Source of the DNA: a virus | DNA: 24,182 bases | Strand: one strand, 5' to 3' | Virus record (IMG/VR): IMGVR_UViG_3300017757_000154 | Location: 1 to 24,182 of that record | In this document: piece by piece, positions 1,956 to 21,481 of the stretch | How positions within the stretch are numbered: the first letter of the stretch is position 1 | Layout: each line of letters starts with the position of its first letter | Translations under genes and position numbers: made by a program | Notes under the pieces: model-generated | The model's input: only the letters and a program-made list of their open reading frames with translations | Database searches by the model: none | Told to the model about the DNA's origin: nothing

Positions 1956-2164
1956 GAGGTCGCTTTGAAGTTATTACAGCTGAGAATCCGAAAGAGGTTA
2001 AGATCTTTGCGGACTACGATGATATTCCGAATAACATTATAGAGATTATATTATTTAAACCCAGCGAGGAAGATGACGAGGGCAATCACAATCACGAGTA
2101 CCTTGCCACCTTCCCGAGAAAACTAGAGGAATTAAAACTACGATGCCAGCAGTCACAAGAATAG
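1952..2164 (+). CDS. Hypothetical protein, 70 residues
   Basis: Start chosen at ATG 1952, which overlaps the previous stop (ATGA) and has GAGG at 1941-1944, seven bases upstream; a TTG at 1931 in the same frame is less likely. The product begins MRGRFEVITAENPKEVKIF, is acidic (PSEEDDEG around residue 41), and has a HNHE stretch. No domain is recognised. The 3' end overlaps the PAAR gene by 22 bases, again implying coupled translation. It could be a small tail-assembly factor or an unrelated accessory protein; the sequence does not decide. Confidence 0.6.
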   Translation: MRGRFEVITAENPKEVKIFADYDDIPNNIIEIILFKPSEEDDEGNHNHEYLATFPRKLEELKLRCQQSQE

Positions 2165-4536
2165 GCGACGCAGATGTCACGCACTGCTCGGGAATGGAAC
2201 GAGCACAGGGTAGCAGTGATGTCACAGCCAATGGTCAGGGTATTAGTAGAGAGGGCGATTTAAATACTGACCATCTACTTCCTGGATCTCCATGCCCAAG
2301 CCATAGTGTAGGCATTCAGTCTGGTGACCCAACTGTATTTGCGAATAAGAAAAGAATAGGACGAGTGGGCGATCCGACATGCACGCAAGTAGCCGAAGGC
2401 AGTCCGAATGTGTTTAGTAGTGGTGGTGGTGAAACAGCTGGAGTAGATACGAATCTACCAATCGGTGGAGTTATCTTTAATTACATACTCACGAGTTCAG
2501 TTGGTAATACTTGTAACGAGGGCGATGTTGCTACGATTACATTAGCTACTCAGAATCTAGCAGTGGGTACGAATGTACCTTATATCGTCACAGGTATTAC
2601 GAATGCTGATATAGTACAGGCTGAGAGTTCTCCTCTAACTGGAAACTTTGTAGTTGGCTCTCAGGATACGAAAGCATTTAAGTTTGCGAATGACCAAGTC
2701 ACAGAGGGCACAGAAAACTTTACTATTAAAGTGACAACGCAAACTCCATTCTTAGGCAACGATACCCTTAGCATTGCTGTGGCTGATACTTCTAACAACC
2801 CAGTCTTTAGTTTGGTGGGTACTACTACTTTGACACCACAGGAAAATACTGTAGGCAACTTTAAGCTGACTGTCGGCTCTGGTATTATTGGCGATACTTA
2901 TCCCTTTACTATATCAGCAGGGCAAGGCAACTTTGATGAAATAGATTTAGATTACATAGCTGACCATAATGGTGTACAGACAACAATTAATCAGATTCCC
3001 TTTACTTCTAACTTTACTCTAAGAGATTTAGGAGGAGGAATAGCAGGTGATGCTTTTGATTTTAAAATAGCTGATGACTTCTCAAGAATAGAAGGTAGTG
3101 AAGTTATGACTGTAGCAGTATCAGATGCAGGAAGTGTAGTGGCAACTCTTAACTTTACTTTAGCAGATTCGTCACTTAAATCGGAAAGTGCTTTAGTATA
3201 TTCAAGGAATGTAATGCCAGCAGGAACTTATGGATTTGAAGATGTATCATTAAGTAATGGTGACCGAGCCAACGATCCTACTTATCCAAATGGTTATACT
3301 TCTAGCAATCTAGCCACTTACCCTTATGCCTATGCTGGTACTTATGGCGACTTGCCTATGGGTTCTACAGTCACAGGTTCCATAGGAAGCAACCAATCAT
3401 TTAGATTAAATGGAATGAATCTAGTTTATGTAGAGGGTATGGGTTATGTATTTGGATTTATTTCCGAGGAGATTAATAACTTAGTTGGTGCTAGTAATAC
3501 TGTGGACTTACACTATAACCACGAAAGGCAGATGATAGTAAACCAACTGAATACTGATAAACCAAACTTACAAGATAGTCAAGCAAGTCCTAATCATCAG
3601 TTTGATACTTTCAACTATAACACAGTGGCAACAGCTACCTTTCAAACTGCAAACTATCCAAATAATTCTACATCTTCTGCATCTGGGATATCACAAGTTG
3701 CTTTCCCACATGATTATAGTACAACTCCTGCTACTGACTATTCATATCAATCTGCGACTGGTCCTTACCATTTATATGGAGCATATACTACAACTCCAGC
3801 AGTAAGTGGTGACGAAAACTTTAGCACCTATGGAAACAGACAACATATAAATGGACAACCTCGTGCCAGCAACTGTGGTTCTATCTGGCATATCTGGTTC
3901 TTCCGAGCAAAACTATCAAACGGAAATCCTGACTTACGACCAGCCCAAACAAAAGACTTTACTTACTTTGGTTGGAATCCAAATGTAAATTCCTTTCGCT
4001 TTAGAACAACAGCATTCTTCAACCACGATGTAAACTGGGGATCTCTCTGGGCACAAAATGATATTGGACCTGATGGTCAAGGAGATGGTGGTATAGATTT
4101 ACAAACAGACTCACGAGTGACATTTGATACAGGAGTTGACCAAACTCTAGGTGGCTATGTGCATATTAAGATAGATTGTGGTACGAGTAGAAGTCAGTTA
4201 ATTCCTGGAAACGCAGGAGGTGGCTTTATAAAAGATGGGGATTACTATGAGCAATATAATATAACAAGGACTGTCACAAAGTATGAAGGTCGGTACTTTA
4301 GTTTTAATCCTTTTAATTTTGGTTGGATATATTATGGAGAATATCAAGAAGAAGAAGTTATCGGAACAGCATATAGACAAAACGATGGTGGTGAACCTTA
4401 TTTCACTAGCATGCCATTCGTAGCAGAGATAGAATTAATCTTTAAAATGTATGCTCCAGCCACCAATACCTTTGCGAGTAATAGCCAAGGAACTAATTTA
4501 TGGGCAACTACACTTCCTGGAGGTGTTTCTGATTAA
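2143..4536 (+). CDS. PAAR-domain tail tip protein (gp5.4-like) with long C-terminal extension
   Basis: Residues 1-95 form a PAAR domain: repeated GD.....G dipeptide turns and candidate zinc ligands H14, H44, H54 and C80, the three-His-one-Cys set of PAAR cones. In T4 the 97-residue gp5.4 caps the membrane-piercing needle. Here the protein is 797 residues. Residues about 105-225 resemble a Calx-beta domain (NEGDVATITL near the start, DQVTEGTENFTI near the end), and residues about 230-345 look like a second, weaker copy. Residues 345-797 are rich in Tyr, Asn, Gly and Trp, and I do not recognise them. The protein is placed at the tail tip, where PAAR extensions usually carry effector or binding functions; that role here is inferred. 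Base composition changes along the gene, from CGA/GAG-rich at the 5' end to AT-rich after about 2900. GAGGA at 2126-2130 may serve as ribosome binding site. Confidence 0.82.
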   Translation: MPAVTRIGDADVTHCSGMERAQGSSDVTANGQGISREGDLNTDHLLPGSPCPSHSVGIQSGDPTVFANKKRIGRVGDPTCTQVAEGSPNVFSSGGGETAGVDTNLPIGGVIFNYILTSSVGNTCNEGDVATITLATQNLAVGTNVPYIVTGITNADIVQAESSPLTGNFVVGSQDTKAFKFANDQVTEGTENFTIKVTTQTPFLGNDTLSIAVADTSNNPVFSLVGTTTLTPQENTVGNFKLTVGSGIIGDTYPFTISAGQGNFDEIDLDYIADHNGVQTTINQIPFTSNFTLRDLGGGIAGDAFDFKIADDFSRIEGSEVMTVAVSDAGSVVATLNFTLADSSLKSESALVYSRNVMPAGTYGFEDVSLSNGDRANDPTYPNGYTSSNLATYPYAYAGTYGDLPMGSTVTGSIGSNQSFRLNGMNLVYVEGMGYVFGFISEEINNLVGASNTVDLHYNHERQMIVNQLNTDKPNLQDSQASPNHQFDTFNYNTVATATFQTANYPNNSTSSASGISQVAFPHDYSTTPATDYSYQSATGPYHLYGAYTTTPAVSGDENFSTYGNRQHINGQPRASNCGSIWHIWFFRAKLSNGNPDLRPAQTKDFTYFGWNPNVNSFRFRTTAFFNHDVNWGSLWAQNDIGPDGQGDGGIDLQTDSRVTFDTGVDQTLGGYVHIKIDCGTSRSQLIPGNAGGGFIKDGDYYEQYNITRTVTKYEGRYFSFNPFNFGWIYYGEYQEEEVIGTAYRQNDGGEPYFTSMPFVAEIELIFKMYAPATNTFASNSQGTNLWATTLPGGVSD

Positions 4537-6989: not shown

Positions 6990-9665
6990 ATGCCAAGTGC
7001 AGTAAAAGCAAAAGTCTCAACTGTAGTAGGAAATCAGATACCTGATTTTATTACTGATGATTCTAATAATTTCAAACAGTTCTTAGAAGCATACTATGAG
7101 TGGATGCAAACTGTTTACCTGCCACAATCTCATCTAGAAAACATTCGTGATATTGATACGACAGTTGATATGTTCGTTGAGCATTTCAAAAATGATATTA
7201 TGCAACCTATACCTGAGCAAGCACTTACTGATAAAAGATTACTTGCTAAAAGAATACAAGATATCTATAGATCTAAAGGTACAGAACAATCATATAAATT
7301 TTTATTTCGTATTTTATTTAACGAAGACGCAGAATTATTTTTTCCAAAGACAGCATTACTACGACCATCTTCGGGAACTTGGTCAGCCAGAACTGTTATA
7401 AGAATTACAGACGCCACAGGTGGGGATCCTTTAGGATTAATTGGTCAAACTATTTCACAAACTCAAGCTGTAGGCGATGGTACATTTAGAACTGTCACAG
7501 GTTTCGTAGAAAACGCAGTATCAACTCAGATAGGAAGTAAGACTGTCACTGACTTAACTATGGATGATGAGTCAATTACTTCAACTTTCGAAGCTGAAGA
7601 TGAATTTAATATAAAGAGTATTACAGCTACATCACTAACAACTGGTGCTACTATAACAGCCACAGTCGTTTCAATTATTACTGGTTTTAATATTACTGAT
7701 GGTGGATCTTATTATGATATTGGTGATTTAATTACAATCGTATCACCAACAGGTAGCGAAGCTAGAGGAGAAATAACTGAGATTGACTCAGGTTCTGTTA
7801 CTGGTGTCACTATCGAGAATGTTGGGGCAGGTTATAAAATAAATGATGAAATTATTTTTGATAATTTAGGAACAGGTGGACCAGGATCTAACGCAGCATT
7901 ATCTGCTCGTGCTTCAGTCACTAATATTGACCGAGACTCAGTATCGCTTGAGTCAGGAAACGCAGGTGGTGGAGGAACACTACTACAAGAAAATAATTTC
8001 GACATAGATTTACAAGAAGCTCCAGAAGAAGGAGCAATTAAACAAGTCACAGTTTTAACAGGTGGTGCATTTTATGACAGACTACCAACCCTTACACTAC
8101 CAACAGGTGGGAACAGAACTGGTGGTAAAGTTGTAGCAACTTCTACTTCTATTGGTAAGTTAAGAAAAATAGAATTATCTAGATTTGGTATTGACTATAA
8201 AGTTCCACCTATTGCTTCTGTACCAGCAATATCTATTTTACAAAATGTCACTGGCTCATTTAACGCAGGTGATACAGTCACACTTACAGCTCAATCATTT
8301 TCAGTAGAAGATGGCAGTGGTGGAGTGTTATTAGAAAGTGGCGATAATATGTTGGTAGAAAACCAGCAAGTATGTACAGGTACAGTAAGAGATTTTGATA
8401 CAGTTAAACAAGTTTTAAAAGTAGATAACCCAAATGTATTTTTACCATTCGCACTTGAGGATGGTTCTGGTAGAATGACCACAGAAACTAGAGATACTTT
8501 TGTTCAAGAACAATCAGGTTTCTTCGCAGATAGTAATACTGTGACATCATCATCAGGTGGTAGTGGTAAAATTATTGACATTAACTACCCATCTATTACA
8601 ACTTCGGTTGGTGCGACAGGTACAGGGTTAGGAGGATACTTAACTGCTGATGGTTTTATTTCTGAGTCATCTAAAAAAATACAAGACTCTAGATTCTATC
8701 AAGACTTCTCATATGTAGTTCAAGTTGGTCAATCAATCGACCAATATAAAGATGCTGTTAAAAAATTACTACACCCAATCGGACTAGCATTATTTGGAGA
8801 AGTACAGATACAAACAATCCTAGCATCATTGATGGGCGATATAAATGATACAGAAAAGAAAAGATATCTGGTCGATTTATTATTACAAGTTATAATTGAT
8901 GGTAAACTAAAAGCAGTCGGTAATTATAGACCTAATAGTGCAGCAGAACATAGACCAGATTTACCAAAACAAATTTTTAGTATTAACTTAGAAGCATTAG
9001 TTGATACTGTTCTTAATTTAAGAATACAAACTTCTGACTTTGTTAGTGAAATAGAGTTCCCTAACTTAACACCAGCAGAAGTAAATCTATTAGAACTATC
9101 TCCACTTAACATATCAGTAGAGGATAGAGTAGAAATAGCTAATAGAACTGCTTACGATTTACAAAAACCTGCTAGAAATCCTGTTGTAAGTTTACCACTA
9201 AGGAGTTCACAACCATTTGATGGTTCGGTAAGACGAGCAGGGTTTAACTTAATAGACCTCGATAGGTATAAGTTCACATTTAAACCCTCTGTAGCAGGAA
9301 CTAAATACTCTAATAGTGAAGGCACACCAGCTTTCACAACTAATGGACTTGAAGATGACCCACGATTGACATACCCTAATCCTAATTCTGGATATTATTC
9401 ACAATATGGTAATACACAAATTAAAGATTTTTCGGATGTTACTGTCGCAAGTATTATAAATAGTCCATATACGCAAGTTTCTTATGCGATTGAATCTGAA
9501 ATTGGCATATTCAAACAGCCAGCATCAGGTTTGAGATTCTCTACACAGGATCCCGCATTCACTTTTGATGATATCGCATTTACATTCGATGCGGATAGTG
9601 TAGAATTTGATACAACTGCTTATAATTTCGATTCGTCGAACTTAAAGTGGGATTTATTAACATAA
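6990..9665 (+). CDS. Large baseplate wedge protein in the gp7 position
   Basis: An 891-residue structural protein between gp6 and gp8, where T4 has gp7 (1032 residues). Residues 1-130 match the conserved start of marine T4-like wedge proteins: a DNFKQFLEAYYEWM-type helix and RIQDIYRSKGTEQSYKFLFR with FNEDAELFFPKT. Residues about 229-300 contain two GG.YY/GAGY beta modules of the kind also found in gp8 and the fibre. Residues about 560-610 (FYQDFSYVVQVGQSIDQYKDAVKKLLHP) resemble the typical FYQ.FSYV segment of phage wedge proteins. The C-terminus (about 855-885) has a short FTFD-type repeat. TAAGG at 6976-6980 serves as ribosome binding site. The wedge role is firm by family; homology to T4 gp7 itself is not established. 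Confidence 0.8.
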   Translation: MPSAVKAKVSTVVGNQIPDFITDDSNNFKQFLEAYYEWMQTVYLPQSHLENIRDIDTTVDMFVEHFKNDIMQPIPEQALTDKRLLAKRIQDIYRSKGTEQSYKFLFRILFNEDAELFFPKTALLRPSSGTWSARTVIRITDATGGDPLGLIGQTISQTQAVGDGTFRTVTGFVENAVSTQIGSKTVTDLTMDDESITSTFEAEDEFNIKSITATSLTTGATITATVVSIITGFNITDGGSYYDIGDLITIVSPTGSEARGEITEIDSGSVTGVTIENVGAGYKINDEIIFDNLGTGGPGSNAALSARASVTNIDRDSVSLESGNAGGGGTLLQENNFDIDLQEAPEEGAIKQVTVLTGGAFYDRLPTLTLPTGGNRTGGKVVATSTSIGKLRKIELSRFGIDYKVPPIASVPAISILQNVTGSFNAGDTVTLTAQSFSVEDGSGGVLLESGDNMLVENQQVCTGTVRDFDTVKQVLKVDNPNVFLPFALEDGSGRMTTETRDTFVQEQSGFFADSNTVTSSSGGSGKIIDINYPSITTSVGATGTGLGGYLTADGFISESSKKIQDSRFYQDFSYVVQVGQSIDQYKDAVKKLLHPIGLALFGEVQIQTILASLMGDINDTEKKRYLVDLLLQVIIDGKLKAVGNYRPNSAAEHRPDLPKQIFSINLEALVDTVLNLRIQTSDFVSEIEFPNLTPAEVNLLELSPLNISVEDRVEIANRTAYDLQKPARNPVVSLPLRSSQPFDGSVRRAGFNLIDLDRYKFTFKPSVAGTKYSNSEGTPAFTTNGLEDDPRLTYPNPNSGYYSQYGNTQIKDFSDVTVASIINSPYTQVSYAIESEIGIFKQPASGLRFSTQDPAFTFDDIAFTFDADSVEFDTTAYNFDSSNLKWDLLT

Positions 9666-9677
9666 ATTAAATTTAAT
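9666..9677. repeat. Perfect 12-base AT palindrome after the gp7-position gene
   Basis: ATTAAATTTAAT begins immediately after the TAA of the upstream gene and ends before the AGGAG of gp8. It is a perfect palindrome, but made only of A and T, so it would form a weak hairpin and could arise by chance in this composition. Confidence 0.25.
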
Positions 9678-9693
9678 CCAGGAGAATACAGCC

Positions 9694-11097
9694 ATGGCTG
9701 CAATTATAACAAGTAAATTTCGCATTCATAATGCGCAATCGTTTCAGGAAGGTTTTTCCGAATCTGCTGCGACGAACATTTATTTGGGGATAGGTCGTCC
9801 ACAAGCATGGGCAGACGACAACTCTCCAGATACTCCGACGGATACAGTCTCTGGCGAGTACTATCGTTGGGATGACATGATTGCTTTGAAAAGAGTTCAA
9901 TCATCTGATGTCACTCTAGCGATTCCTAGAAGAAACTGGACCTCGGGAAAATATTATGACATTTATAAAGATAATTATAATGGTGCAACAGCTGGAGTAA
10001 ACATTGACAGTGGAGCAGGTACGACACCTGCCACTCTTTTCAGTGCTAACTTCTTTGTTGTTACAGATGAATATAATGTTTATAAATGTTTAGACAATAA
10101 CAATGGTGGGCAAAGCACTACCAAACCAACAGGAACTGGTACAACTGTTATCAGTACAGCTGACTCATACAAGTGGAAATATATGTACACTGTATCACCA
10201 GCTGATGTGTTAAAGTTTGTATCTACAGACTTTATTCCTGTTAAGAAAATTATAACCAACCCAGGATCTACCGATCCTTACTACAATCAATATCTAGTTG
10301 AGCAAGCTGCAGTTGATGGTAAGATTGAACATATCACTGTGACTAATAATGGTACATCTTATTCAGGTGCACCAACTATCTCAATTACTGGTGATGGCAC
10401 AGGTGCTGCTGCTGATGCAGTTTATGATAGTGGTACTAACACTGTCACTGGCGTGACTGTGACTAATGGTGGTTCAGGTTATACTTTTGCTGCGATATCT
10501 TTTTCAGGTGGTGGTGGTTCTGCTGCTGCTGCGACTGCAATCATTTCACCAAAAGGTGGACATGGTGCGAATGCTGAAGAAGAACTTGGTGCTTTTTATG
10601 CCATGATGAATGTTCGTTTAGAATACGCAGATGGTACAGGGGACTTCCCAGTAGATAACGATTACAGAAGAATTACATTAGTAAGAGATCCATTCAACTT
10701 TGGTGGAACTGTTGTTGCTTCAGCAACTACATTGAGCTCTACTAAATCTATGTCTTTCACATCACTAACAGGTGGTTCGTTGGTTGTAGATAGAACTTTC
10801 TCAGGTGGTACTTCTAGTGCTGTTGGTAGAATTATTTCTATCGATACAGGTACATCTACTATTAGATATATTCAAACTGCTAGTGACAACCCAACTGGTG
10901 TAAACTTCCAGTCGGCAGAAACTGTCACTATGAATGATGCTGCTGGTTCGCCATCAGGTGTCACTTTCACTAGTGCTACTTTGAATAATCCAGAAGTTCA
11001 ACCAGACTCTGGTGATATTATGTATGTAGAAAACAGAAGACCAATTAACAGAGCAAGCGACCAAATCGAAGATATAAAAATTATCGTCGAAATGTAA
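9694..11097 (+). CDS. gp8: Baseplate wedge subunit gp8
   Basis: The N-terminus (MAAIITSKFRIHNAQSFQEG, then YLGIGRPQAWADD) and the KYMYTVSPADVLKF segment near residue 160 are hallmarks of the gp8 family, whose members sit in the wedge and contact gp10, gp7 and gp6 in T4. The protein is 467 residues against 334 in T4; the excess includes a glycine/threonine-rich insertion at about residues 213-286 with NNGTSYSGAP and NGGSGYTFAA modules, and a second beta-rich stretch at about 340-440. The conserved GHGANAEEELGAFYAMMN and FNFGG segments return after the first insertion. AGGAG at 9680-9684 sits nine bases before the ATG. The stop is followed by a hairpin (11104-11121). Confidence 0.9.
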   Translation: MAAIITSKFRIHNAQSFQEGFSESAATNIYLGIGRPQAWADDNSPDTPTDTVSGEYYRWDDMIALKRVQSSDVTLAIPRRNWTSGKYYDIYKDNYNGATAGVNIDSGAGTTPATLFSANFFVVTDEYNVYKCLDNNNGGQSTTKPTGTGTTVISTADSYKWKYMYTVSPADVLKFVSTDFIPVKKIITNPGSTDPYYNQYLVEQAAVDGKIEHITVTNNGTSYSGAPTISITGDGTGAAADAVYDSGTNTVTGVTVTNGGSGYTFAAISFSGGGGSAAAATAIISPKGGHGANAEEELGAFYAMMNVRLEYADGTGDFPVDNDYRRITLVRDPFNFGGTVVASATTLSSTKSMSFTSLTGGSLVVDRTFSGGTSSAVGRIISIDTGTSTIRYIQTASDNPTGVNFQSAETVTMNDAAGSPSGVTFTSATLNNPEVQPDSGDIMYVENRRPINRASDQIEDIKIIVEM

Positions 11098-11103
11098 TAC
11101 TAA

Positions 11104-11121
11104 GTAGTGTATGTACACTAC
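11104..11121 (+). promoter_or_regulatory. Hairpin in the gp8 to DUF4815 gene gap
   Basis: GTAGTGTA (11104-11111) and TACACTAC (11114-11121) are perfect inverted copies; a realistic fold has seven pairs and a four-base ATGT loop. No T-run follows, so it is not a normal factor-independent terminator. It occupies the 52-base gap before the largest gene and ends 28 bases ahead of its ATG. It could stabilise or mark a processed mRNA end, or tune translation of the giant gene. Confidence 0.5.
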
Positions 11122-11149
11122 GAACTTGCAATAACAAGAGAAAAGATAG

Positions 11150-14100
11150 ATGACAATAAATTTTAATGTAAGTCCTTATTACGATGACTATGATGCAAGT
11201 AAAGATTTCCTGCGTGTATTGTTTCGTCCTGGATATTCAGTACAGGCAAGGGAATTAACTACTCTTCAAACGATCCTTCAAAATCAGGTCACTAGATTCG
11301 GAAACCATATATTCGAAAATGGATCTATGGTTATTCCAGGATCTGTAAATGTGAACAATGAAGTAAACTTCATGAAGTTGAACGACTTACAAGATGGAAA
11401 TTCAGTCACAACCTATCTAACTCAATTTAAAGATAAAGTAATTACTGGTTCAATCTCTGGTGCGAAAGCATTAGTAGAAGATACATCTGAATGTGATTGT
11501 ATGGTTGCTGGTGACAGCACTATACCATCGCTACACTTTACGATGATGGACTCAGGTACATCAGGGTCAACTAAAAAGTTTGTTGCTGGTGAAGAAATTA
11601 CTGCACTTGCTGCTGATAATAGTAAAACTACAAACTTCCGACTTACTGCTAATCAGGTTGGCGATTTAAAAGTCACCATTAAATCTTTTGGAGATACTGG
11701 TAATGTTGGTACAACTTATACAAACAATGCTACTAGCGATGTATTGGGTAAATCATATAGAGTAGAAGTACGAGCAGGGATTTATTATATAGATGGTTTC
11801 TTTGTACAAAACTCAGAAATACATTTATATATCTCAAGGTTTAATACTACACCATCTAACAGAGTAGGATTCCAAGTCACTGAAGATGTAGTGACACCAG
11901 AGGAAGATACTACTCTTAATGATAATGCTCAAGGTACAAATAACTTTGCTGCACCTGGAGCACATAGATATAAAATATCTCTTGCCTTAAAAAGACTATC
12001 ACTTAGTGGTACTGACTCAATTAAATTTGTTGAGTTAATTAGAATTAAAGAAGGTATTGTTCAACAGAAAGTTGAAAAGGCAAGTTATGCTGAGTTAGAA
12101 AAAACTTTAGCAAGAAGAACTTTTGATGAGTCAGGTTCTTACGAAACAAACAAATTTAAAATATCACTTAAAGAACATTTAGATGATGGTACAGGTGCAG
12201 GAGTTTATCAAGCAAATCCTGGAAGTACATCATCTTCTTTCGACGCAAACGCCACTTATGGCGACGCAGATAAATACGCAATCGTTGTAGATCCAGGAAA
12301 AGCATATGTTGAAGGATTCGAAGTAGAATCTACACAAACAACTTATTATCCTGCAGTAAAATCTAGACCAACGACTGATTCTTCTGGAACTACAAGCGAA
12401 AATAATTCAGTAATTAGAGATGCTGCTCAACCAGTAGGAACATCTATAGGAAACTTTGTAATAGCTAGAAATATTACAAGAGCTCCAGCTATCGATACTT
12501 TTGAAAAAGTATTTTTATTCGACGCATCTGGTGCACCTTGGACAAGTTCAGGTGTGTCATCTTATACTGCCCCAACAACTCCTATATCAAGTTATAGTGG
12601 TGCAGTTGGTACAGCTTTTATTAGAAGTTTCCAACTACATAATGGTTCATATTCTGCTCCTACATTTAAAGCAAGTTTATTTAATGTAGTAATGAATGAT
12701 GGTAAATCATTTGCTAGAGATGTCACTTGGTTCGCCAGTTCTAGTAATGGTCAAGTCACAGGTAATGCTGACTTCTATGCAGAGGTAGATCCTACTGCTG
12801 ACTCAGAACAAATTAATTTATCAGGTACTATGTCATTGCCAAACCAAACAGGTGGTTCTAATGTGACACTTACAGGTGTTGGTACTTCTTTTCAAAATCA
12901 ATTAAAAGTTGGCGACGCATTAGTACACGATGGACAAACTGTAGGATTTGTCACAGCTATTGCTAATGGTATATCTGCTACAGTACAAAGACCAGCTAAC
13001 TCTGACAATACATCACTAACAGGTGTAGCAATGACAGTTGGTCGTTCTCAACTAAAAGAAACACAATACAGTTCTCTATTATATTCTACTGGTTATAACT
13101 TTACGAAATCTATTAAAGGTTTTGATACAGGTTCAGGAACTGATACTCTAGAACAATCTACTCATACTGTAAGAAGAGTTAATACTAATACAACTACAGG
13201 TGGTGGGGACTTCGTTATGACATTAAGTAATGTCAACGAAACTTTCCTATCAGATACCGAACTATCAAACTATACATTAATTAGAAACGATACAGGAGCA
13301 GTGCTTAATATAACTGCTGCTGATATTTCTTTTGATGATGACGCAAATAGAAAAGAAGTGACAATCGCTTCTGGTGTAAACGCAACTTCGTGTACCTTGT
13401 ACACTTCAGTTCTTCAAGTAAATGCTGCAGCAACTGAGAAAACAAAAGTAAGAACTACAGCCAATGAAACATTTACTGGAAAAACTAATGTTGCTAAACC
13501 AGAGATAGAACTTAATAATGCTGATGGTATTGATATTACATCAGTTAAAATGGTTCCTGGAAACTTTACTACTTATACAGAAAATTTAGCAATTGATATT
13601 ACAGAAAACTACGAATTAGATTCAGGACAAAGATTAACGCACTACCAAAAAGCAAGATTAAAATTAAAAGCTGGTGCACCTTTACCAACTGGTGCTATAA
13701 AAGTCACATACAGACATTTCTCATATTCTGGTTCAGGAAACTTCTTCTCAGTTGATTCTTATTCAGGTATTAACTATGAAGATATTCCTTCATTCGAATA
13801 TCAAGATGCTACTGGTCAAAAAGTCACAATCGACTTACATGATGTTGTAGATTATAGACCAGTAATTTCAGGTGCTAATACTTTTACACCAGAACTACCG
13901 AAGATTGGTACAGACTTAACAACTCCTGTAGCATTTTATGTTGGTAGAAAAGATAAACTATCTATATCCTCTACAGGAAAAATTCAAATAGTAAGTGGGC
14001 AACCATCTGAATATCCGCAAGAGCCAGAAGATCCAAAACAAGGATTGGTGCTTGCTAGTATGGATATACCACCTTATACTAAAAATGTTTCTGATATAAA

Positions 14101-17100
14101 AATATTCCAAAGAGATAATAGAAGATATACCATGAGAGATATTGGTGGTCTTGAAAAAAGAATTAAGAATTTAGAATATTATACTTCTTTATCGCTACTA
14201 GAAAAAGACACTAAATCAACAGCAATTAAAGATGCTACTACTGGCTTAGATAGATTTAAAAATGGTTTTGTAGTTGATGACTTTACAGGTCATGGTGTAG
14301 GTAATGTTAAATCGCCTGACTATAATGTTTCTGTTGATGCGAAAAACAGAACACTACGACCAGCACACTTTACAGATGTATTAACAGTTATAGAAAATAT
14401 TTCAAACACTACTCAAAGAACAACAAGAGGTTATACTAAAACTGGAGATTTAATCACACTACCTTATACTGAGTCAAGTTTAGTTAGCAATCCTAATGCT
14501 ACTAGATCTCTTGATGTAAACCCTTATAAGATTGGTGCTTATAAAGTAGAAGTACAATTATTCCCAGAGTCAAGTATCTGGAAAGATACAGATAGACGAC
14601 CAGACTTAACAGTTCAAGATGATAATAACACAGATGCGATTAGATTCTTAGCTGAGCAAACAGGAGTAGTAGGAACTGAATGGAATGAATGGGCAAACAA
14701 CTGGACTGGTTCTTCTTCATCTACTACAACATCTTCTAGCAGAATTGGTAATACTATAAGTGTGTTTCAAAATACTGTCACCACTGAAACAGGAAACAGA
14801 ACAAGAGGTGGTACAAGAACATCTATAACCACATCAACCAACTCACAAAACTATGGTGATAAAGTTGTTGATATGACATACATCCCTTACATTAAGGATG
14901 AAGTTGTAAATATTGACGCAAGAAATGCTAAACCTAATTCACAATATTTTGTGTTTATTGATGGTGAGCGAGTTGATACCAGTTATGTAAAACCTGCTGA
15001 CATATTTAAAGTCACACAAGTTGCTGGTTCAACTACACCTATTTTAGATCCAGGACTTTTAGATGCTGGCTTACTAGCTGACGATCCATTTCGTGCTTAC
15101 AATGGTAAAATTGTAAACGCATTTAACTTCGGTGATGTAATTAAAAATGCTGACCACACTGCTACTAGGATTGATACAATAAATCATATTACTTCAGCAG
15201 ATGGTGCAACAAGTTTCACTATGACAGTTCAAGATGCTACTGGTTTAAATCCAGGACATCATGTTTTCTTATATAATTTAAATGCCACTAGAGGAACTGA
15301 CGCAACTAACAACAGAGGTATAGAACAAAATATTACTTCTACTATCCCAACTATTGGTACCAATCACTCAAAACAATTAAACAGAAAATATTTTAAGATT
15401 ACTGCAGTTTCAGGAACTACTATTACTCTATCAGCACTTGATGGTTCTAATATCGCAGCATTCGATTCTTATGCGAGAGCTTCAGCTTATACTGGAACTG
15501 ATGGTGGTAAATTACAAAGACTTACTGCTTCAGGAATTATATCTTATGCTGGTGTAAAAGATTCAGCTACAGTAAGAGATGTTCATATAACAAATATTAA
15601 AAATGGTTTTGCTATCGGTGAAAATGTCACTGGTACTGCCGATATTGGATTAGGTGCGAAAAATACACTTACTCTAACAGAAATAAATGGTTCTTCAATA
15701 TCAACTGCTGCTCCAACAATGAAAGCTACAGGAGGAACTATTACTTCTGATAAAGAAGGATCTTTAAATGCTGTGCTTTATATTCCTGCTGGTAGATATA
15801 GAACTGGAGAAAGAAGCATAAAACTTTCTGATAATATTTCTAATACTGATGCTGACTTCGATTCGTTTGGTTCAGCATTATTTACTGCTAATGGTATGCA
15901 GTTAGCAAAAGAAAGAACTGTTGTCTCTTCAAGAAATTTAAGTTTCGTTGAAGATAGATTATTCCAATCACAACCTATTCGAAGATCTTCTGTTTCTAAC
16001 AGATTAGTTCAACAATTTAATGTTGGTGGTCACGATCCACTCGCTCAAACTTTCGTTGTTCAATCTGATGGTGGTGCATTTGTTACATCTGTTGACTTAT
16101 ACTTTAAGCAAGCAGGTGAAAGACCAGTCTATGTAGAAATTAGAACTACTGATAACGAAGTACCTTCTACAAAGATTGTTCCTTTCTCACAAGTTATATT
16201 ACAACCAGCTGATATTAATACCAGCACTAATGGATCTGTAGCAACAACTTTCACATTCCCATCACCAATTTATTTACAAGAGAATGAAACTTATGCTCTA
16301 GTTGTAAAAGTTGATGAGCCAGGATGTGAAGCATATATTTCTGAATTAGGTGGAACTGATTTACTTACTGAAAATATTGTAGGTATTCAACCACTAACTG
16401 GTTCACTATACTTATCGCAAAACTCTAGAGAGTTTGAAATTAATCCACTGTTAGATCTTAAGTTTGATTTAAAACAAGCATCGTTTACTGAAAACACAAA
16501 TGGTACAGTACAACTAAAAGCAAACCCTGCTGAAACTGTAAGACTTAACAAAGATCCTTTCCAGTTTACTACTAATTCTGAATTGGTAAGAGTACATCAA
16601 AAAAATCATGGTTTCGCTGCAGGCGATATCGTAATAATTGATGGAGTTGCTGATGGATTATATGGAGCAAACTCTATAACTAATGGTGCAAGTCAAGATT
16701 TATTAAATGGTGCTCACACTATACAAACAAATGGACTACAAAAAGATTCTTATGTAATTGACTTAGAAACAGTTGATGCAAATAATAACGATATATTAGA
16801 TGGAGCAGTTTCTGACTTTATTACTGGTAGATATGGTGGCTCAATAGTAGATGCTTCAAGGCAACTTACTGCTGATGCTTTATATTTCAAAACTGAAGAT
16901 TTAGATTTTGATGACACAGAATTATCTTACACTATAAATTCTACAGACACTAGCGGAACTGCTAGTGGTAATAAAACTATTGTTCCTAATGCTACATATA
17001 ATTTTGATAGTAGGAAAGTAATTAAGTCTTTTGAAAACCAAACAACTGTTTCAACGACACCACTAATTAAAACTCCGACACTAACATTTGATGCTACCAT

Positions 17101-18427
17101 AAGTACAACAAATAAAAATGTTTCACCTGTAATTGATTTACAAAAACTTGGTGGATATGCGATTACGAATTTAGTTGACCAGTCATCAACTGCTATAAAT
17201 GTCCCAGAGATTGACCAGAAAAAATTAATTAATACTGGAGATATTGGTTTAGCATTATCAACTTCCTCGGGAACTGGTACTGTGAGTACAACTTCTGCTA
17301 GTCCTACTGTGACTGGTTCAGGAACTGCCTTTACAACCCAAGTCTCAGTTGGCGACACATTAACAACATCTGCTGGTGCATTAGGTAGAGTAAGAACTGT
17401 AGGAAGTGACACAAGTATAACACTATGTGATAACACTGCTCAAGTTTCTACTGGGGCAACTTTCCAAATTACTTCTGACCCAGTAATTACATTTAAACAT
17501 GGAGCAAAAGCTGTAGAGTCAAATGTAGATGCGATTGATAATCTACTTGATAATGTTACAGCAGGAAGTCAGTTATACTTAACTAACATACACCCAGAAT
17601 TAAATGGTGCTATCGATGTAGAGTCTGTTATTGTAAGCTCAAGCACACTACCATTCGGTGGTAATCAAGAGCTCGATAAAACTACTATAAATAAAACAGC
17701 GAACTTTAGTTTTAATGAAACTAACGATATCAAATTAGATGTCGCTCAAAACTTTACTGAGCAAAAAGCAGGATTTACTATTACATCACAAACAAGTTCA
17801 ATTAATGTCACAGCTTCTGGTGCAGTTGATGGTAAATTAATTGCTGGTGATATATTAGTTATCGAAGATGCTGATGGTGTAGGGTCTCTTTCTACTGTTG
17901 GTGGTGTACAAGTATTTAATAAAACTATTCTTGGTACAGTCGCATCAGTAAATGGTACGAACATAGCATTGGCTGCAAACGCAACTGCTGCACTTACTGC
18001 TAAGAATGTAGTTATAAGAAAAGATATATCAGCTTCTACTTGGAACTTCTCTGCTATGGAAGAGTTTGTTGCTGATACTGCTCCAGTTGGTGCTACTAAT
18101 TTAGCAAACTATATAACTAGAACTCTAGAATTAACTAATCCAGCTGACGCATTAAATATTACATTCGATGCTAATGTACCGAAGTCAACAAATTTACAAG
18201 TTTTCTATAAAGCATTCTCTGGTGATACAAATCCTGATACTTTAAATTGGATAGATTCTGGATTTACTGTATCATCTAAAGATGCAGTTGATGTATTTAC
18301 TGAAAGGAATATAACTGTAAGCGATATCCCTGAATTTACAAAGGTTGTTGTTAAGATTGTTATGAAATCTACTGATACAATCTCTGTACCAAAAGTTCAG
18401 GCATTCCGATTAATTTGTCATAGCTAG
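11150..18427 (+). CDS. Giant DUF4815 baseplate/fibre-connector protein, 2425 residues
   Basis: The N-terminus (residues 1-420) is a DUF4815 domain: FNVSPYYDDYDASKDFLRVL, then a PGYSVQARELTTLQ helix and later VVDPGKAYVEGFE near residue 380. Marine T4-like phages carry such proteins where T4 has gp9-gp12. Residues about 557-610 hold a beta module of the TLTGVGTSFQNQL type and residues about 2040-2095 a second copy. Around 965-1025, MDIPPYTKNV leads into a helical segment (LEKRIKNLEYYTSLSLLEKD). Residues about 1625-1790 form a conserved domain starting HDPLAQTFVVQSDGGAFVTS. The last 630 residues are beta-rich repeats. The likely role is to link wedge and tail fibres. The start has only a weak AAGAG upstream. 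It has no frame break despite its length, and dominates the window. Confidence 0.82.
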   Translation: MTINFNVSPYYDDYDASKDFLRVLFRPGYSVQARELTTLQTILQNQVTRFGNHIFENGSMVIPGSVNVNNEVNFMKLNDLQDGNSVTTYLTQFKDKVITGSISGAKALVEDTSECDCMVAGDSTIPSLHFTMMDSGTSGSTKKFVAGEEITALAADNSKTTNFRLTANQVGDLKVTIKSFGDTGNVGTTYTNNATSDVLGKSYRVEVRAGIYYIDGFFVQNSEIHLYISRFNTTPSNRVGFQVTEDVVTPEEDTTLNDNAQGTNNFAAPGAHRYKISLALKRLSLSGTDSIKFVELIRIKEGIVQQKVEKASYAELEKTLARRTFDESGSYETNKFKISLKEHLDDGTGAGVYQANPGSTSSSFDANATYGDADKYAIVVDPGKAYVEGFEVESTQTTYYPAVKSRPTTDSSGTTSENNSVIRDAAQPVGTSIGNFVIARNITRAPAIDTFEKVFLFDASGAPWTSSGVSSYTAPTTPISSYSGAVGTAFIRSFQLHNGSYSAPTFKASLFNVVMNDGKSFARDVTWFASSSNGQVTGNADFYAEVDPTADSEQINLSGTMSLPNQTGGSNVTLTGVGTSFQNQLKVGDALVHDGQTVGFVTAIANGISATVQRPANSDNTSLTGVAMTVGRSQLKETQYSSLLYSTGYNFTKSIKGFDTGSGTDTLEQSTHTVRRVNTNTTTGGGDFVMTLSNVNETFLSDTELSNYTLIRNDTGAVLNITAADISFDDDANRKEVTIASGVNATSCTLYTSVLQVNAAATEKTKVRTTANETFTGKTNVAKPEIELNNADGIDITSVKMVPGNFTTYTENLAIDITENYELDSGQRLTHYQKARLKLKAGAPLPTGAIKVTYRHFSYSGSGNFFSVDSYSGINYEDIPSFEYQDATGQKVTIDLHDVVDYRPVISGANTFTPELPKIGTDLTTPVAFYVGRKDKLSISSTGKIQIVSGQPSEYPQEPEDPKQGLVLASMDIPPYTKNVSDIKIFQRDNRRYTMRDIGGLEKRIKNLEYYTSLSLLEKDTKSTAIKDATTGLDRFKNGFVVDDFTGHGVGNVKSPDYNVSVDAKNRTLRPAHFTDVLTVIENISNTTQRTTRGYTKTGDLITLPYTESSLVSNPNATRSLDVNPYKIGAYKVEVQLFPESSIWKDTDRRPDLTVQDDNNTDAIRFLAEQTGVVGTEWNEWANNWTGSSSSTTTSSSRIGNTISVFQNTVTTETGNRTRGGTRTSITTSTNSQNYGDKVVDMTYIPYIKDEVVNIDARNAKPNSQYFVFIDGERVDTSYVKPADIFKVTQVAGSTTPILDPGLLDAGLLADDPFRAYNGKIVNAFNFGDVIKNADHTATRIDTINHITSADGATSFTMTVQDATGLNPGHHVFLYNLNATRGTDATNNRGIEQNITSTIPTIGTNHSKQLNRKYFKITAVSGTTITLSALDGSNIAAFDSYARASAYTGTDGGKLQRLTASGIISYAGVKDSATVRDVHITNIKNGFAIGENVTGTADIGLGAKNTLTLTEINGSSISTAAPTMKATGGTITSDKEGSLNAVLYIPAGRYRTGERSIKLSDNISNTDADFDSFGSALFTANGMQLAKERTVVSSRNLSFVEDRLFQSQPIRRSSVSNRLVQQFNVGGHDPLAQTFVVQSDGGAFVTSVDLYFKQAGERPVYVEIRTTDNEVPSTKIVPFSQVILQPADINTSTNGSVATTFTFPSPIYLQENETYALVVKVDEPGCEAYISELGGTDLLTENIVGIQPLTGSLYLSQNSREFEINPLLDLKFDLKQASFTENTNGTVQLKANPAETVRLNKDPFQFTTNSELVRVHQKNHGFAAGDIVIIDGVADGLYGANSITNGASQDLLNGAHTIQTNGLQKDSYVIDLETVDANNNDILDGAVSDFITGRYGGSIVDASRQLTADALYFKTEDLDFDDTELSYTINSTDTSGTASGNKTIVPNATYNFDSRKVIKSFENQTTVSTTPLIKTPTLTFDATISTTNKNVSPVIDLQKLGGYAITNLVDQSSTAINVPEIDQKKLINTGDIGLALSTSSGTGTVSTTSASPTVTGSGTAFTTQVSVGDTLTTSAGALGRVRTVGSDTSITLCDNTAQVSTGATFQITSDPVITFKHGAKAVESNVDAIDNLLDNVTAGSQLYLTNIHPELNGAIDVESVIVSSSTLPFGGNQELDKTTINKTANFSFNETNDIKLDVAQNFTEQKAGFTITSQTSSINVTASGAVDGKLIAGDILVIEDADGVGSLSTVGGVQVFNKTILGTVASVNGTNIALAANATAALTAKNVVIRKDISASTWNFSAMEEFVADTAPVGATNLANYITRTLELTNPADALNITFDANVPKSTNLQVFYKAFSGDTNPDTLNWIDSGFTVSSKDAVDVFTERNITVSDIPEFTKVVVKIVMKSTDTISVPKVQAFRLICHS

Positions 18428-18435
18428 GAGTAATT

Positions 18436-18666
18436 ATGATTTGGGCAGGAACTAAAATTGAAGGCGAACCAGATTTAAGAAAAGATAACGATAGTAAAGC
18501 GATTATCAATACTAATACTGATGCATACAAAAGATATAAACAACATCAATCTGGAAAAATAGCTGAGTTGGCGGAAAAAGAACGCATGAAAAAAGAAATA
18601 AATATACTTAAAGATGATGTTAAAGATATCAAAGATATGTTAATTAAACTCACGGAGAAACTATAA
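18436..18666 (+). CDS. Small coiled-coil protein, 76 residues
   Basis: AGGAG at 18426-18430 sets the start, five bases before ATG 18436 and only eight bases after the giant gene. Residues 1-30 (MIWAGTKIEGEPDLRKDNDS) lead to a DSKAIINTNTDAYKRYK segment; residues 38-76 are a charged heptad-like helix ending IKDMLIKLTEKL, a probable coiled coil. Similar small proteins accompany fibre genes in marine T4-like phages, so a trimerising adaptor or assembly factor is plausible but not shown. Its TAA overlaps the next ATG (TAATG). Confidence 0.75.
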   Translation: MIWAGTKIEGEPDLRKDNDSKAIINTNTDAYKRYKQHQSGKIAELAEKERMKKEINILKDDVKDIKDMLIKLTEKL

Positions 18667-18875
18667 TGGCAAAGGAAGCTGCAGTCGCACAAGTAAGTCA
18701 GAGTGAAACCTTTGACCAGTGGCGAGTAAAAACGAATTTGAATATTACTAAGGGAAACAACCAAGAAGATAAACTTGGCGACTTAGCACTATTACAAAAT
18801 GGAGAAGCTGATTTAACATCAGCTGTTAATAACGCAAGAGATTATTCAATAGCAATTAGTATTGCACTTGGTTAG
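18666..18875 (+). CDS. Small fibre-module protein, 69 residues
   Basis: The ATG shares a base with the preceding stop and is served by GGAG at 18654-18657. The product contains SETFDQWRVKTN (residues 12-23), a motif I associate with N-terminal attachment segments of marine phage tail fibres, then GDLALLQNGEADLTSAVNNA and the hydrophobic end YSIAISIALG. A similar C-terminal SLALSVALGG ends the 76-residue protein at 21509. This suggests a standalone attachment or adaptor unit rather than a whole fibre. No enzyme motif is visible. Confidence 0.7.
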   Translation: MAKEAAVAQVSQSETFDQWRVKTNLNITKGNNQEDKLGDLALLQNGEADLTSAVNNARDYSIAISIALG

Positions 18876-18897
18876 TCTTTAAGAAAAGGGAAAATAA

Positions 18898-19221
18898 ATG
18901 GCAAACGATTTTAAAAATGGATTGGCGAAGGATGTTGGGTCTTCGGCAGTCACACTCTACACAACTCCCAGCTTAAAGCAATCCATCATTATCGAATGTG
19001 ATGTATGCAATACAACTTCTGCTACTATAACCACTGATGTGTTTATAGCTTCTGGCGGACAAGACTTCCATATTGTGAAGAACGCACCAGTCCCAACAGG
19101 TGGTACTCTTCAAGTGGTTTCTAACCAGAAAATTATATTAGAAAGTGGCGAAGTTTTAAAAGTAAAAAGTAGTGCAGCATCATCTGCGGATGTTATTGCT
19201 TCAATACTTGAAGATGTATAG
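18898..19221 (+). CDS. Small beta-rich virion protein, 107 residues
   Basis: The pattern VTLYTTPSLKQSIIIECDVCN...TTDVFIASGGQDFHIVKNAPVP followed by GGTLQV and KIILESGEVLKVKSS resembles a widespread family of small phage virion proteins that form a beta-sandwich with an NAPVP.GG turn (residues about 61-70). They are usually found next to fibre genes. AAGGGA lies at about 18886-18891, and the gene is 10 bases from the tail fibre gene, so co-expression is likely. The role, decoration or fibre attachment, is inferred from position. Confidence 0.72.
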   Translation: MANDFKNGLAKDVGSSAVTLYTTPSLKQSIIIECDVCNTTSATITTDVFIASGGQDFHIVKNAPVPTGGTLQVVSNQKIILESGEVLKVKSSAASSADVIASILEDV

Positions 19222-19231
19222 GAAATAAAAT

Positions 19232-21481
19232 ATGGCATATATTGGTTCACAAACTATTAATGCGAGTACTACACTCACGCGACCTAGAGACGAGTTCGTA
19301 TGTGATGGTAATACCAAAGCATTTAAATTAAGTCAAGAAGTTCCTGGAGCATTTGAGTCAAATGTTCAGGTTGTACTTGGGAATATTATTCAAGAGCCAG
19401 TAAATGCTTACACTATACAGGATGTTTATAGATTAACATACTCAAATTTATCATTAACAATTGGTGCTAACCAACCAGCTCGTGGCGATTTAATTACGCA
19501 AGGTGCAAATACATTCTTAGTCACAGAAGCTACTACAGGAATTTTAGATGTAATGGCTGCAACTGCTGGTGGACCAGTACCAACTACTGGGGCAGGTTTA
19601 ACATTAAATGTACCTAATATAGATTTCGGTGTAGATACGCAAGTTAAACATGATGATAATACAATATCATATACTACTGGAACAATTACAGGAGTCAGTA
19701 TTGTACAAAGTGGTGGCTCAGGATATGCTACTACTGATACAATTTTTATAGGTGCACCAAATATTGGTGGTAATGAAACAGCTACTGCTAGTGTATCAAT
19801 TTCTGCTCAAGGAGCAGTTCAAGAAATTACTGTCACTAAAGCTGGTAAAGGTTATACATCTGCACCTGCTGTAAATATTACTTCTACAGGAAGTGGTACT
19901 AACGCAACTGCTACTGCTACTCTAGACTCTGATGGTGGTGTTGCTTCTATTGCTGTTGACTCAGGTGGGTCAGGTTATGACTCAACTACAACTACCATTA
20001 CAATAGAAGATGCTACTACTGGTGGTGTTCAAGCAAAAGCAAGTATTACAAGTGTAGATGGTAGTGGTGCGATTACTGGTGTGACAATGACATCAGGTGG
20101 TTCTGGTTATACATCTAAACCAACTATATTTGTTTCAACTGGTGGTGCTACTACAACAAGTGGTACAGGTACTATAAGTGTTGCTGCCAATTCAGCTACT
20201 GTGACTGGTGTAGGATCTGCCTTTTCAAGTCAACTAACTGTAGGAAATACATTATTCGTTGGTCAAAGTGTTGTAGGTGTAATTGATGCTATCGCTAGTG
20301 ATACTTCATTAACTATTAAAACAGCAATTGGATCGACAGCTGTTAATAGTTCAGCATATAGTTTCGGTGTAAGAGCTGAATTAGATTTAACATTTACTGG
20401 TAATGAAGGAACACTTCAAGTTGATTCTGTAGAAACATTACAAAGAAGAGGTTTATATTTTAATGGTGTTCCTAGACCAGAAGAAAATTTATATATTAAT
20501 CACTTAGGTGGGTCAAGTTTCCAAAATGTTCCTTCTGCTGGATCTGTGACAGAAGATACCTTAGCAACTAATTTAAAAACATTTACTGTAGATAAATTTA
20601 CTTCTACAGCTTCACAGTCAGCATTTACTTTATCTAAAACTCCACCAAGTGGTAATTCTATTCTAGTAATTATTAATGGTTCAGTACAAACTGAAACTAC
20701 ACACTACTCAGTATCTGGTACGACTTTAACATTAGTCACTCCATTATCTGCTGGTGTGACTGTCACAGTTGTTCATATGGGTTTCAGTACAGTATCTAGA
20801 AACGCATTCGTAGATGGTACATTAACATCATCAGCATTTGCTGACTTAACATTAACTGGTAGCAAGATTGCTCAGAACACAATAGATAATACAAAACTTG
20901 CTACAAATACAGTTGTTAATCATTTAGGATATACTCCTGTAGCATCTAATGCAGGTTCAGCTCAAAGTATTAATGCTCAGTTAGCAATAACTGGCGACTT
21001 AGATTTATCTGCTGCTACAGCAGGACAAATTAAATTCCCACCATCACAAAATTCTTCATCTAATGGTCAAACTTTAGATGACTACAGAGAAAGTTCATTA
21101 GCAACTTCTATGGGATTTGGTGGTGCTCAAGTTGGTTTACAAGCTGGAGCAACAGCTGTAAATACAACATACTTTACTAAAGTTGGGAATATAGTTATGC
21201 TGAATATGGAAATGACTATTACTGCTAAAGGATCTTCTACAGGAAATGCAGCAATAGTATTACCAATCGTGGCTAATGCAGATGGCGATGCTATCATTCC
21301 TATCTGGTTTGAAGGAATGGCTTCTGGCGTGACAAGTATGATAGGTAGAATAGAAGGTGGATCTCAGTCTTTAAAATTATTTAAAAGAGATACTGATGGT
21401 GAATACACTACAGCAACCCATGCTGATTTTACTGATGCTTCACATCTGATTGGTTCAGGTACATATAGAAGTGCAACATAA
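19232..21481 (+). CDS. Tail fibre protein, 749 residues
   Basis: The N-terminal part (residues about 18-70: EFVCDGNTKAFKLSQEVPG) and a segment at about 455-520 (SAFTLSKTPPSGNSILVIING) are two divergent copies of a phage fibre beta domain of the type F.L...P....I.V..NG..Q. Residues about 153-306 are a run of GGSGY/GKGY modules, and about 310-370 hold a TVTGVGSAFSSQL module also present in the DUF4815 protein. The end (from about 625: YRESSLATSMGFGG, then TTYFTKVGNIVMLNMEMTIT) resembles C-terminal fibre-tip domains. A fibre role in host contact is a sound family inference; the receptor is unknown. AGGAA at 19220-19224 is the ribosome binding site. Confidence 0.83.
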   Translation: MAYIGSQTINASTTLTRPRDEFVCDGNTKAFKLSQEVPGAFESNVQVVLGNIIQEPVNAYTIQDVYRLTYSNLSLTIGANQPARGDLITQGANTFLVTEATTGILDVMAATAGGPVPTTGAGLTLNVPNIDFGVDTQVKHDDNTISYTTGTITGVSIVQSGGSGYATTDTIFIGAPNIGGNETATASVSISAQGAVQEITVTKAGKGYTSAPAVNITSTGSGTNATATATLDSDGGVASIAVDSGGSGYDSTTTTITIEDATTGGVQAKASITSVDGSGAITGVTMTSGGSGYTSKPTIFVSTGGATTTSGTGTISVAANSATVTGVGSAFSSQLTVGNTLFVGQSVVGVIDAIASDTSLTIKTAIGSTAVNSSAYSFGVRAELDLTFTGNEGTLQVDSVETLQRRGLYFNGVPRPEENLYINHLGGSSFQNVPSAGSVTEDTLATNLKTFTVDKFTSTASQSAFTLSKTPPSGNSILVIINGSVQTETTHYSVSGTTLTLVTPLSAGVTVTVVHMGFSTVSRNAFVDGTLTSSAFADLTLTGSKIAQNTIDNTKLATNTVVNHLGYTPVASNAGSAQSINAQLAITGDLDLSAATAGQIKFPPSQNSSSNGQTLDDYRESSLATSMGFGGAQVGLQAGATAVNTTYFTKVGNIVMLNMEMTITAKGSSTGNAAIVLPIVANADGDAIIPIWFEGMASGVTSMIGRIEGGSQSLKLFKRDTDGEYTTATHADFTDASHLIGSGTYRSAT

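Follow-up and report, generated by a model that had tools for sequence, protein, structure and literature searches.

Paired G-x-[GS]-Y beta modules in the baseplate and fibre proteins of a virus record, with possible kinship to T4 gp18 domain I

We analyzed a 24,182-base virus record, IMGVR_UViG_3300017757_000154 (called the window here, meaning the whole stretch), which comes from a T4-like virus and in which three virion proteins carry copies of a module of about 40 residues with a G-x-[GS]-Y motif. The baseplate genes of the window lie in the order gp25, gp6, gp7-like, gp8, a 2425-residue protein at the place of VrlC, and a fibre. The three module carriers, all on the + strand, are a gp7-like baseplate wedge protein of 891 residues (6990..9665); gp8, a baseplate wedge protein of 467 residues (9694..11097); and a tail-fibre-like protein of 749 residues with an array of four modules (19232..21481). 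Gp8 was identified by Pfam Phage-Gp8 (PF09215; 1.7e-23, with 83.7 bits against a cut-off of 25) and by phrog_438, which matches over the whole length (3.9e-136). In tblastn, its highest matches among annotated phages are Pelagibacter and Synechococcus phages; Kyanoviridae is the taxon under which HTVC008M, P-SSM4, and Mosig are filed. The fibre gene is an open reading frame (ORF) with a relative, in locus L243, that is 77% identical across all 749 residues.

The 891-residue protein matches T4 gp7 in phmmer (E 2.8e-7), and its family aligns with T4 gp7 644-790 in hhalign (95.5%). Pfam Baseplate_wedge scores slightly below its cut-off on this protein (26.1 vs 27 bits). These alignments indicate that the protein is a short gp7, homologous to that of T4. 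A study of pelagimyophages reports that T4 gp7 is missing and that VrlC apparently takes its place (PMC7029224). The homologue at 6990-9665 conflicts with the published absence of gp7 from pelagimyophages and cyanomyophages, as its homology to T4 gp7 indicates a short gp7 in the window's phage.

Using a module profile built from the nine window peptides, we detected nine copies, all on the + strand: three in the gp7-like protein, two in gp8, and four in the fibre. In the gp7-like protein, modules 1 (residues 230-269; 7677..7796) and 2 (residues 270-313; 7797..7928) make up pair A, and module 3 (residues 350-390; 8037..8159) is the first of pair B. The initial annotation had recognized the site at residues 229-300, which our search confirmed, but had overlooked the third copy at 350-390. 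A degenerate module 4 (residues 391-436; 8160..8297) is tentatively the second of pair B. When pair B is aligned to that of gp8, this stretch falls in register (75%, E 3e-6), but on its own it scores 0.5-1.7%. The gp8 modules occupy residues 211-250 (10324..10443) and 251-289 (10444..10560). Those of the fibre follow one another at residues 152-195 (19685..19816), 196-236 (19817..19939), 237-280 (19940..20071), and 281 to about 325 (20072..20206), the last with an uncertain end, the profile match running to residue 314 or 329.

Unmasked BLASTP connects the gp7-like protein, gp8, and the fibre at E 5e-6 to 0.012. With hhalign, gp7 pair A aligns with the gp8 pair in register over 85 columns (95.2%, E 8e-9), and gp8 module 1 aligns with gp8 module 2 (64.7%, E 8e-6). 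Between window modules from different genes, 16-46% of aligned residues are identical. The profile, BLASTP, and hhalign matches bear out the claim that the three proteins have a module in common at the places first noted, and they show that the copies form one homologous family. A second common module, of the type TVTG.G..F..Q..VG..L, links fibre residues 307-403 with residues 2037-2132 and 571-613 of the 2425-residue protein (blastp E 2e-9). It lies at 12864-12922, 17304-17362, and 20196-20254, and two of the copies have 76% DNA identity over 59 bases.

The gp8 modules had been described as an insertion without counterpart in T4 gp8, and our comparisons agree. T4 gp8 matches the module profile at E 1.5 over 5 residues only, and the hhalign alignment between the gp8 family and T4 gp8 stops at residue 184 of the window protein, ahead of the insert. 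Structure prediction of the insertion, put forward in the initial annotation as a check, gave a confident six-stranded model. Gp8 was modeled from 68 aligned sequences with a mean predicted local distance difference test score (pLDDT) of 84.6 and block values of 86-94 for insert residues 211-290. Within residues 211-284, each module is predicted to contribute three strands: 211-218, 228-233, and 236-245 in module 1 (block pLDDT 87-94), and 250-261, 266-271, and 279-284 in module 2. The model superposes on T4 gp8 (1n7z) with a Z of 19.4 (256 residues at 2.9 A).

Structural alignment of this model found 226 chains with a Z of 2 or more. Among the best 50, which were listed, three matches are confined to residues 211-286, and all three are sheath proteins aligned at gp18 domain I. 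The insert aligns with residues 99-188 of 3foa; both T4 sheath entries, 3foa and 3j2m, give a Z of 6.1 (75 residues, 2.9-3.0 A), and a Klebsiella phage sheath gives 5.3 (71 residues). Elsewhere in gp8, a further beta insert of the type F..GE.V.G.TSGA.A.V is visible by eye at residues about 340-430 (10711-10983). VIA-align matches gp8 349-436 to eIF2 gamma and EF-Tu barrels (Z about 5 to 6.5), and BFVD structural matches of gp8 include DNA-stabilizing proteins of the P22 Gp10 type.

Profile searches also point to gp18 domain I. The gp7 pair A stretch (7650-7940) matches Pfam Gp18_dom_I (PF22639) at E 0.0004 and 20.7 bits. Against 14 T4 proteins, a gp7 pair profile ranks gp18 first (2.7e-5; the next is at 0.31), and its score on gp18, 14.2 bits, compares with at most 9.1 for 2800 shuffled proteins. 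A separate pair profile, which contains no gp7 or gp18 sequences, combines 12 gp8 pairs, 6 fibre pairs, and 1 further array pair; searched against the complete T4 genome, it has a single match at E up to 0.01. This match is gp18 domain I (E 5.4e-4), covering gp18 residues about 102-169 and model positions 9-74 of 84. Twelve gp7 pairs align with eight T4-type domain I sequences at 91.9% over 47 columns. In the reverse direction, a T4 domain I profile searched against 848 proteins finds gp18 and then 13 gp7-like proteins at E 0.003-0.06, several of which are near relatives of each other. By hhalign, T4 domain I matches the whole gp7 family on module 1 (55.7%). When PF22639 was run over eight records, T4 gp18 was the sole match above the cut-off; gp7-like ORFs and a 2662-residue P-SSM4 ORF matched below it, and two records had no match.

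Several of these results weigh against kinship with domain I. Pair A does not reach the curated PF22639 cut-off of 27 bits, and no PF22639 match was listed for the gp8 pair, gp7 pair B, or the fibre in the Pfam search. The alignment to domain I, found by profiles in both directions, covers mainly the first half of the pair, within those 47 columns. T4 domain I matches the gp8 family alone at just 1.4%, on module 1, and 2 of 14 unrelated control genomes give sub-threshold PF22639 matches too. Among 81 P-SSM4-like gp18 proteins searched with five module and pair profiles, nothing was convincing (best E 0.11). The structural Z of 6.1 is below the safe level of the tool; since a Z under 8 may reflect a common arrangement, the sheath match supports kinship but is not proof. 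The fibre array was modeled poorly (mean pLDDT 66) from 73 aligned four-module slices, picked from 155 non-redundant ones; both phases were perhaps mixed among them, which may have spoiled the model. Fold searches with it were empty, gp18 being among the proteins not returned, a result that excludes nothing, and a solved-structure search with the array gave only weak matches to tryptophan synthase (E 0.28). Taken together, the profile matches support a distant relationship between the module pair and gp18 domain I but do not prove it.

We examined the age of the module by counting copies on the ORFs of fetched loci plus the window. Modules over threshold were present in 80 of 82 gp8 ORFs, two in 59 and one in 21. 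The other two ORFs are fragments missing the region, one at a contig end (L038) and one the second part of a split ORF (L073). Gp8 of HTVC008M, P-SSM4, and Mosig has two modules each, and G220, G260, and Y263 are invariant in 68 distinct gp8 sequences. Among gp7-like ORFs, 58 of 72 carry modules. From 340 profile matches we retained 303 modules, dropping 37 that were too short. Whether modules sort by phage or by gene had been set beforehand as the test able to refute recent copying. In a tree of 155 of the 303 modules (40 columns; strong support on just 8 of 152 inner branches), the gene label requires 4 changes (minimum 2, shuffled mean 72.0) and the phage label 131. A module of the same gene from outside the phage cluster was nearer than a module of another gene in the same genome for 110 of 111 gp7, 108 of 108 gp8, and 45 of 46 fibre modules open to this comparison, a test that leans toward the same gene because the same-gene pool is larger. 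Mean inter-gene identity is a fairer test; within versus outside genomes it was 0.253 and 0.289 for gp8, 0.252 and 0.262 for gp7, and 0.33 and 0.316 for fibres. These patterns show that in gp8 and gp7 the module is old and inherited with the gene.

It had also been proposed that similar DNA in the three genes reflects recent copying between them. The similarity itself is present. The DNA word GGTGGTTCAGGTTATAC matches exactly at 10468..10484 on the + strand, in gp8 module 2, with near-matches at 19712, 19841, and 19964 (3 mismatches each) and at 20096 (1 mismatch). Allowing up to 3 mismatches, the 5 matches compare with 0.05 expected, and 5 was reached in 0 of 100 shuffles. As the count is far over expectation, the DNA likeness is more than chance. 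Further results count against the absence of recent copying. With whole-window codon usage as background, inter-gene codon identity shows a mild excess (162 vs 135.3, p 0.011), as do the fibre-gp7 comparison (p 0.010) and 17-mer likeness (4 vs 1.6, p 0.009). Codon identity between fibre and gp8 is slightly higher within genomes than between clusters (49.2% vs 45.5%). In the fibre array of L037, moreover, adjacent modules have 90-94% DNA identity over 50-53 bases (94% over 53), revealing a recent tandem duplication inside that array.

Permuting codons among the residues of the modules themselves removed the excess (162 vs 168.9, p 0.81), and the DNA likeness is therefore explained by the protein motif together with local codon preference. 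Inter-gene codon identity at shared residues was 48.2% within genomes (1620/3360) and 47.5% between clusters (117,201/246,530); the corresponding values were 45.6% and 47.0% for fibre-gp7 and 48.5% and 48.9% for gp7-gp8. BLASTN linked modules of different genes in 5 of 356 within-genome pairs and in 501 of 27768 between-genome pairs, so that such matches are no more frequent inside a genome. With modules grouping by gene, with no overall within-genome excess in BLASTN, mean identity, or codon identity, and with modules in all gp8 ORFs but two fragments, the proposal of recent copying fails. As far as sequence can tell, the tree, the BLASTN rates, and the codon tests rule out gene conversion for gp7, gp8, and fibre, and we regard such copying within the window's phage as very improbable.

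Modules also occur, often in pairs, on other virion proteins. Four neck proteins of the gp14 type with the same flanks differ at one site: L246 has 218 residues and 0 modules, L255 301 and 2, L265 309 and 2, and L267 386 and 4. (L265 is in the same record as L023, and L267 in the same record as L007.) Thus, some neck proteins differ by a pair-sized segment. Across 22 distinct neck proteins, with degenerate modules included, 3 have no module, 4 have two, 2 have four, 9 have five, 2 have six, 1 has seven, and 1 has eight. Those with none include the proteins of T4 and P-SSM4, and neck proteins of another subfamily have 5-8. The P-SSM4 neck protein (L083:37211-38137) has, by eye, a different repeat at the site of the modules, of the F..GE.V.G.TSGA.A.V type found in gp8 340-430. 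In the L023 record, six ORFs match the pair: gp7-like, gp8, fibre, neck, a 671-residue fibre-like protein, and a 371-residue protein that matches phrog_613, a head protein. At L266:109-1224 and L268:631-1440, a protein matching phrog_613 has a module pair near the N terminus, and its C-terminal half looks immunoglobulin-like (Ig-like) by eye. Six modules also lie near the N terminus of a phrog_376 tail protein (L254:4677-7076), and six is the usual number in a family of proteins of about 740 residues (L185 to L206). The BLASTP matches listed between L185 and the window fibre fall in the module region, outside the first 100 residues.

Other counts speak against the pair as the unit. The number of modules is odd in 10 of the 22 neck proteins, indicating that pairing is not strict. 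In a test of array lengths on 80 further loci plus three fibres (116 runs in 51 clusters at the laxest threshold), even lengths outnumbered odd ones by 38 to 13 at that threshold and by 33 to 19 at a stricter one (score above 4). With the stricter score, arrays of three or more modules were even in 25 cases and odd in 19. The even excess depends on the threshold (p 0.0003 at the laxest, 0.06 at the strictest), and the array runs showed no difference in spacing between versus within pairs, although one was expected. We rejected an even-number rule for arrays, which is neither robust to threshold nor supported by spacing, and keep it as a hint only.

Each G-x-[GS]-Y module, we propose, supplies one half of a small accessory beta domain, so that two in succession, with three strands apiece, would form one six-stranded domain of about 80 residues. 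This domain would be distantly related to gp18 domain I, probably with the same fold, and would sit in loops of virion proteins or run in series on them. In Kyanoviridae-type phages, the gp7-like protein and gp8 have long carried the domain and pass it on with the gene; neck, fibre, and head proteins gain, lose, and multiply it, often in pairs. The six-strand fold is predicted for the gp8 pair. According to PMC3004832, domain I of T4 gp18 combines a six-stranded barrel with a helix and lies as an insert within domain II, facing outward without sheath-sheath contacts; it binds the baseplate and retracted fibres, and the G106S mutation inhibits fibre retraction. In Met-numbered T4 gp18, residue 178 is L and 179 is A. 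As the A178 of that paper is found at 179, PMC3004832 seems to number one lower, and G106 would then be the glycine of P-G-S-N-Y, the module motif. From the protrusion of domain I, its role with fibres, and the position of G106 on the motif glycine, we infer by analogy that the paired domain most likely protrudes from the assembled particle and may serve as a docking surface for neighboring virion parts, such as folded-back tail fibres. We consider the whole explanation, a paired accessory barrel akin to gp18 domain I that docks virion parts at the surface, slightly likelier to be right than wrong. A bolder version seems quite unlikely to us, namely that T4-like phages use one interchangeable docking barrel, which T4 would mount on its sheath and Kyanoviridae-type phages on gp7, gp8, fibre, neck, and head proteins. 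Arrays on the fibres may then bind barrels on the particle body, so that fibres are parked and released barrel-to-barrel along the particle.

The modules could instead resemble one another through convergence, as Gly/Ser/Thr-rich beta hairpins alike in composition, the proteins sharing no ancestry with one another or with domain I. Their sequence is short and biased; tblastn with the gp8 insert alone finds nothing, probably owing to the complexity filter; and the similarity to domain I is sub-threshold, with the weak PF22639 matches in control genomes. Convergence is nevertheless unlikely, as the alignment stays true in register across two modules, as pair profiles single out gp18 among 14 T4 proteins and a single site in T4's entire genome, as shuffled controls score lower, and as the two glycines and the tyrosine of gp8 are invariant. 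Another view is that an Ig-like or carbohydrate-binding domain attaches the virion to cell or particle surfaces, instead of docking virion parts. Phage Ig-like domains are small beta domains spread across many virion proteins, which the mobility of the module resembles, and one relative carries the pair on a head protein. The fibre array also matches Pfam InlJ_IG at E 0.0036. That match is below the cut-off (17.8 vs 26 bits), however, and no Ig family was above it in Pfam. The gp8 pair matches gp18 domain I, with no Ig folds among the 50 matches listed, and the Pfam matches of the three proteins include no carbohydrate-binding family, leaving an adhesion domain a limited chance.

The modules might also be passive spacers that merely lengthen proteins and hold parts apart, with no specific partner. 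Array copy number does vary widely, in runs of 2 to 24. Since gp8 carries the modules at a fixed site, with motif residues that do not vary among sequences of 45-96% identity to the window's, we doubt this explanation as well.

Phage virions are already known to bear small mobile beta domains. What appears to be new is this family of G-x-[GS]-Y modules, the pair as its unit, and the connection with gp18 domain I. We found no description of the module in listings of open-access papers or in PMC9230969, PMC3004832, and PMC7029224; among the listed papers that print module motif strings, none has a phage-virion title. The motif recurs in many phage virion proteins that lack annotation; our proposal would supply it with a probable fold and a role open to testing, and would tie these proteins to the domain by which T4 holds its retracted tail fibres. 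There is also a warning here for annotation, as the module by itself can pass on a family label: PHROG families labeled wedge subunit, tail fibre, and head closure Hc2 all match the window fibre via the module region.

Two other parts of the window were noted by eye. A 797-residue protein (2143-4536) begins with a PAAR-like repeat, as in a spike tip with a long extension. At 1001-1743, two ORFs that overlap by 109 bases encode a P-loop kinase-like protein (GLPGSGKTT) and a nucleotidyltransferase-like protein (RFQPWHDGH).

Among known systems, phage Ig-like domains are similar to the window modules in being small beta domains on many virion proteins, but the modules have no Ig match above cut-off and another best structural match. 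The C-terminal half of phrog_460, the gp14-type neck protein (head closure Hc2), matches the modules, although the host protein is different and carries 0 to 8 of them. T4 gp8 (PF09215) corresponds to the host protein of the insert, and 256 residues superpose; it has no module, and the window gp8 is 133 residues longer. T4 gp18 domain I (PF22639, 3FOA) differs in its place, since T4 has it on the sheath while the modules sit on gp7, gp8, fibre, neck, and head proteins; in its extra helix, described in PMC3004832; and in that the window pairs score under the Pfam cut-off. In common with the module pairs, it is an insert of about 90 residues in another domain, with a G-S-x-Y motif followed by VGD.I.V and with six strands, as predicted for the gp8 pair, and profiles of module pairs and domain I match in both directions.

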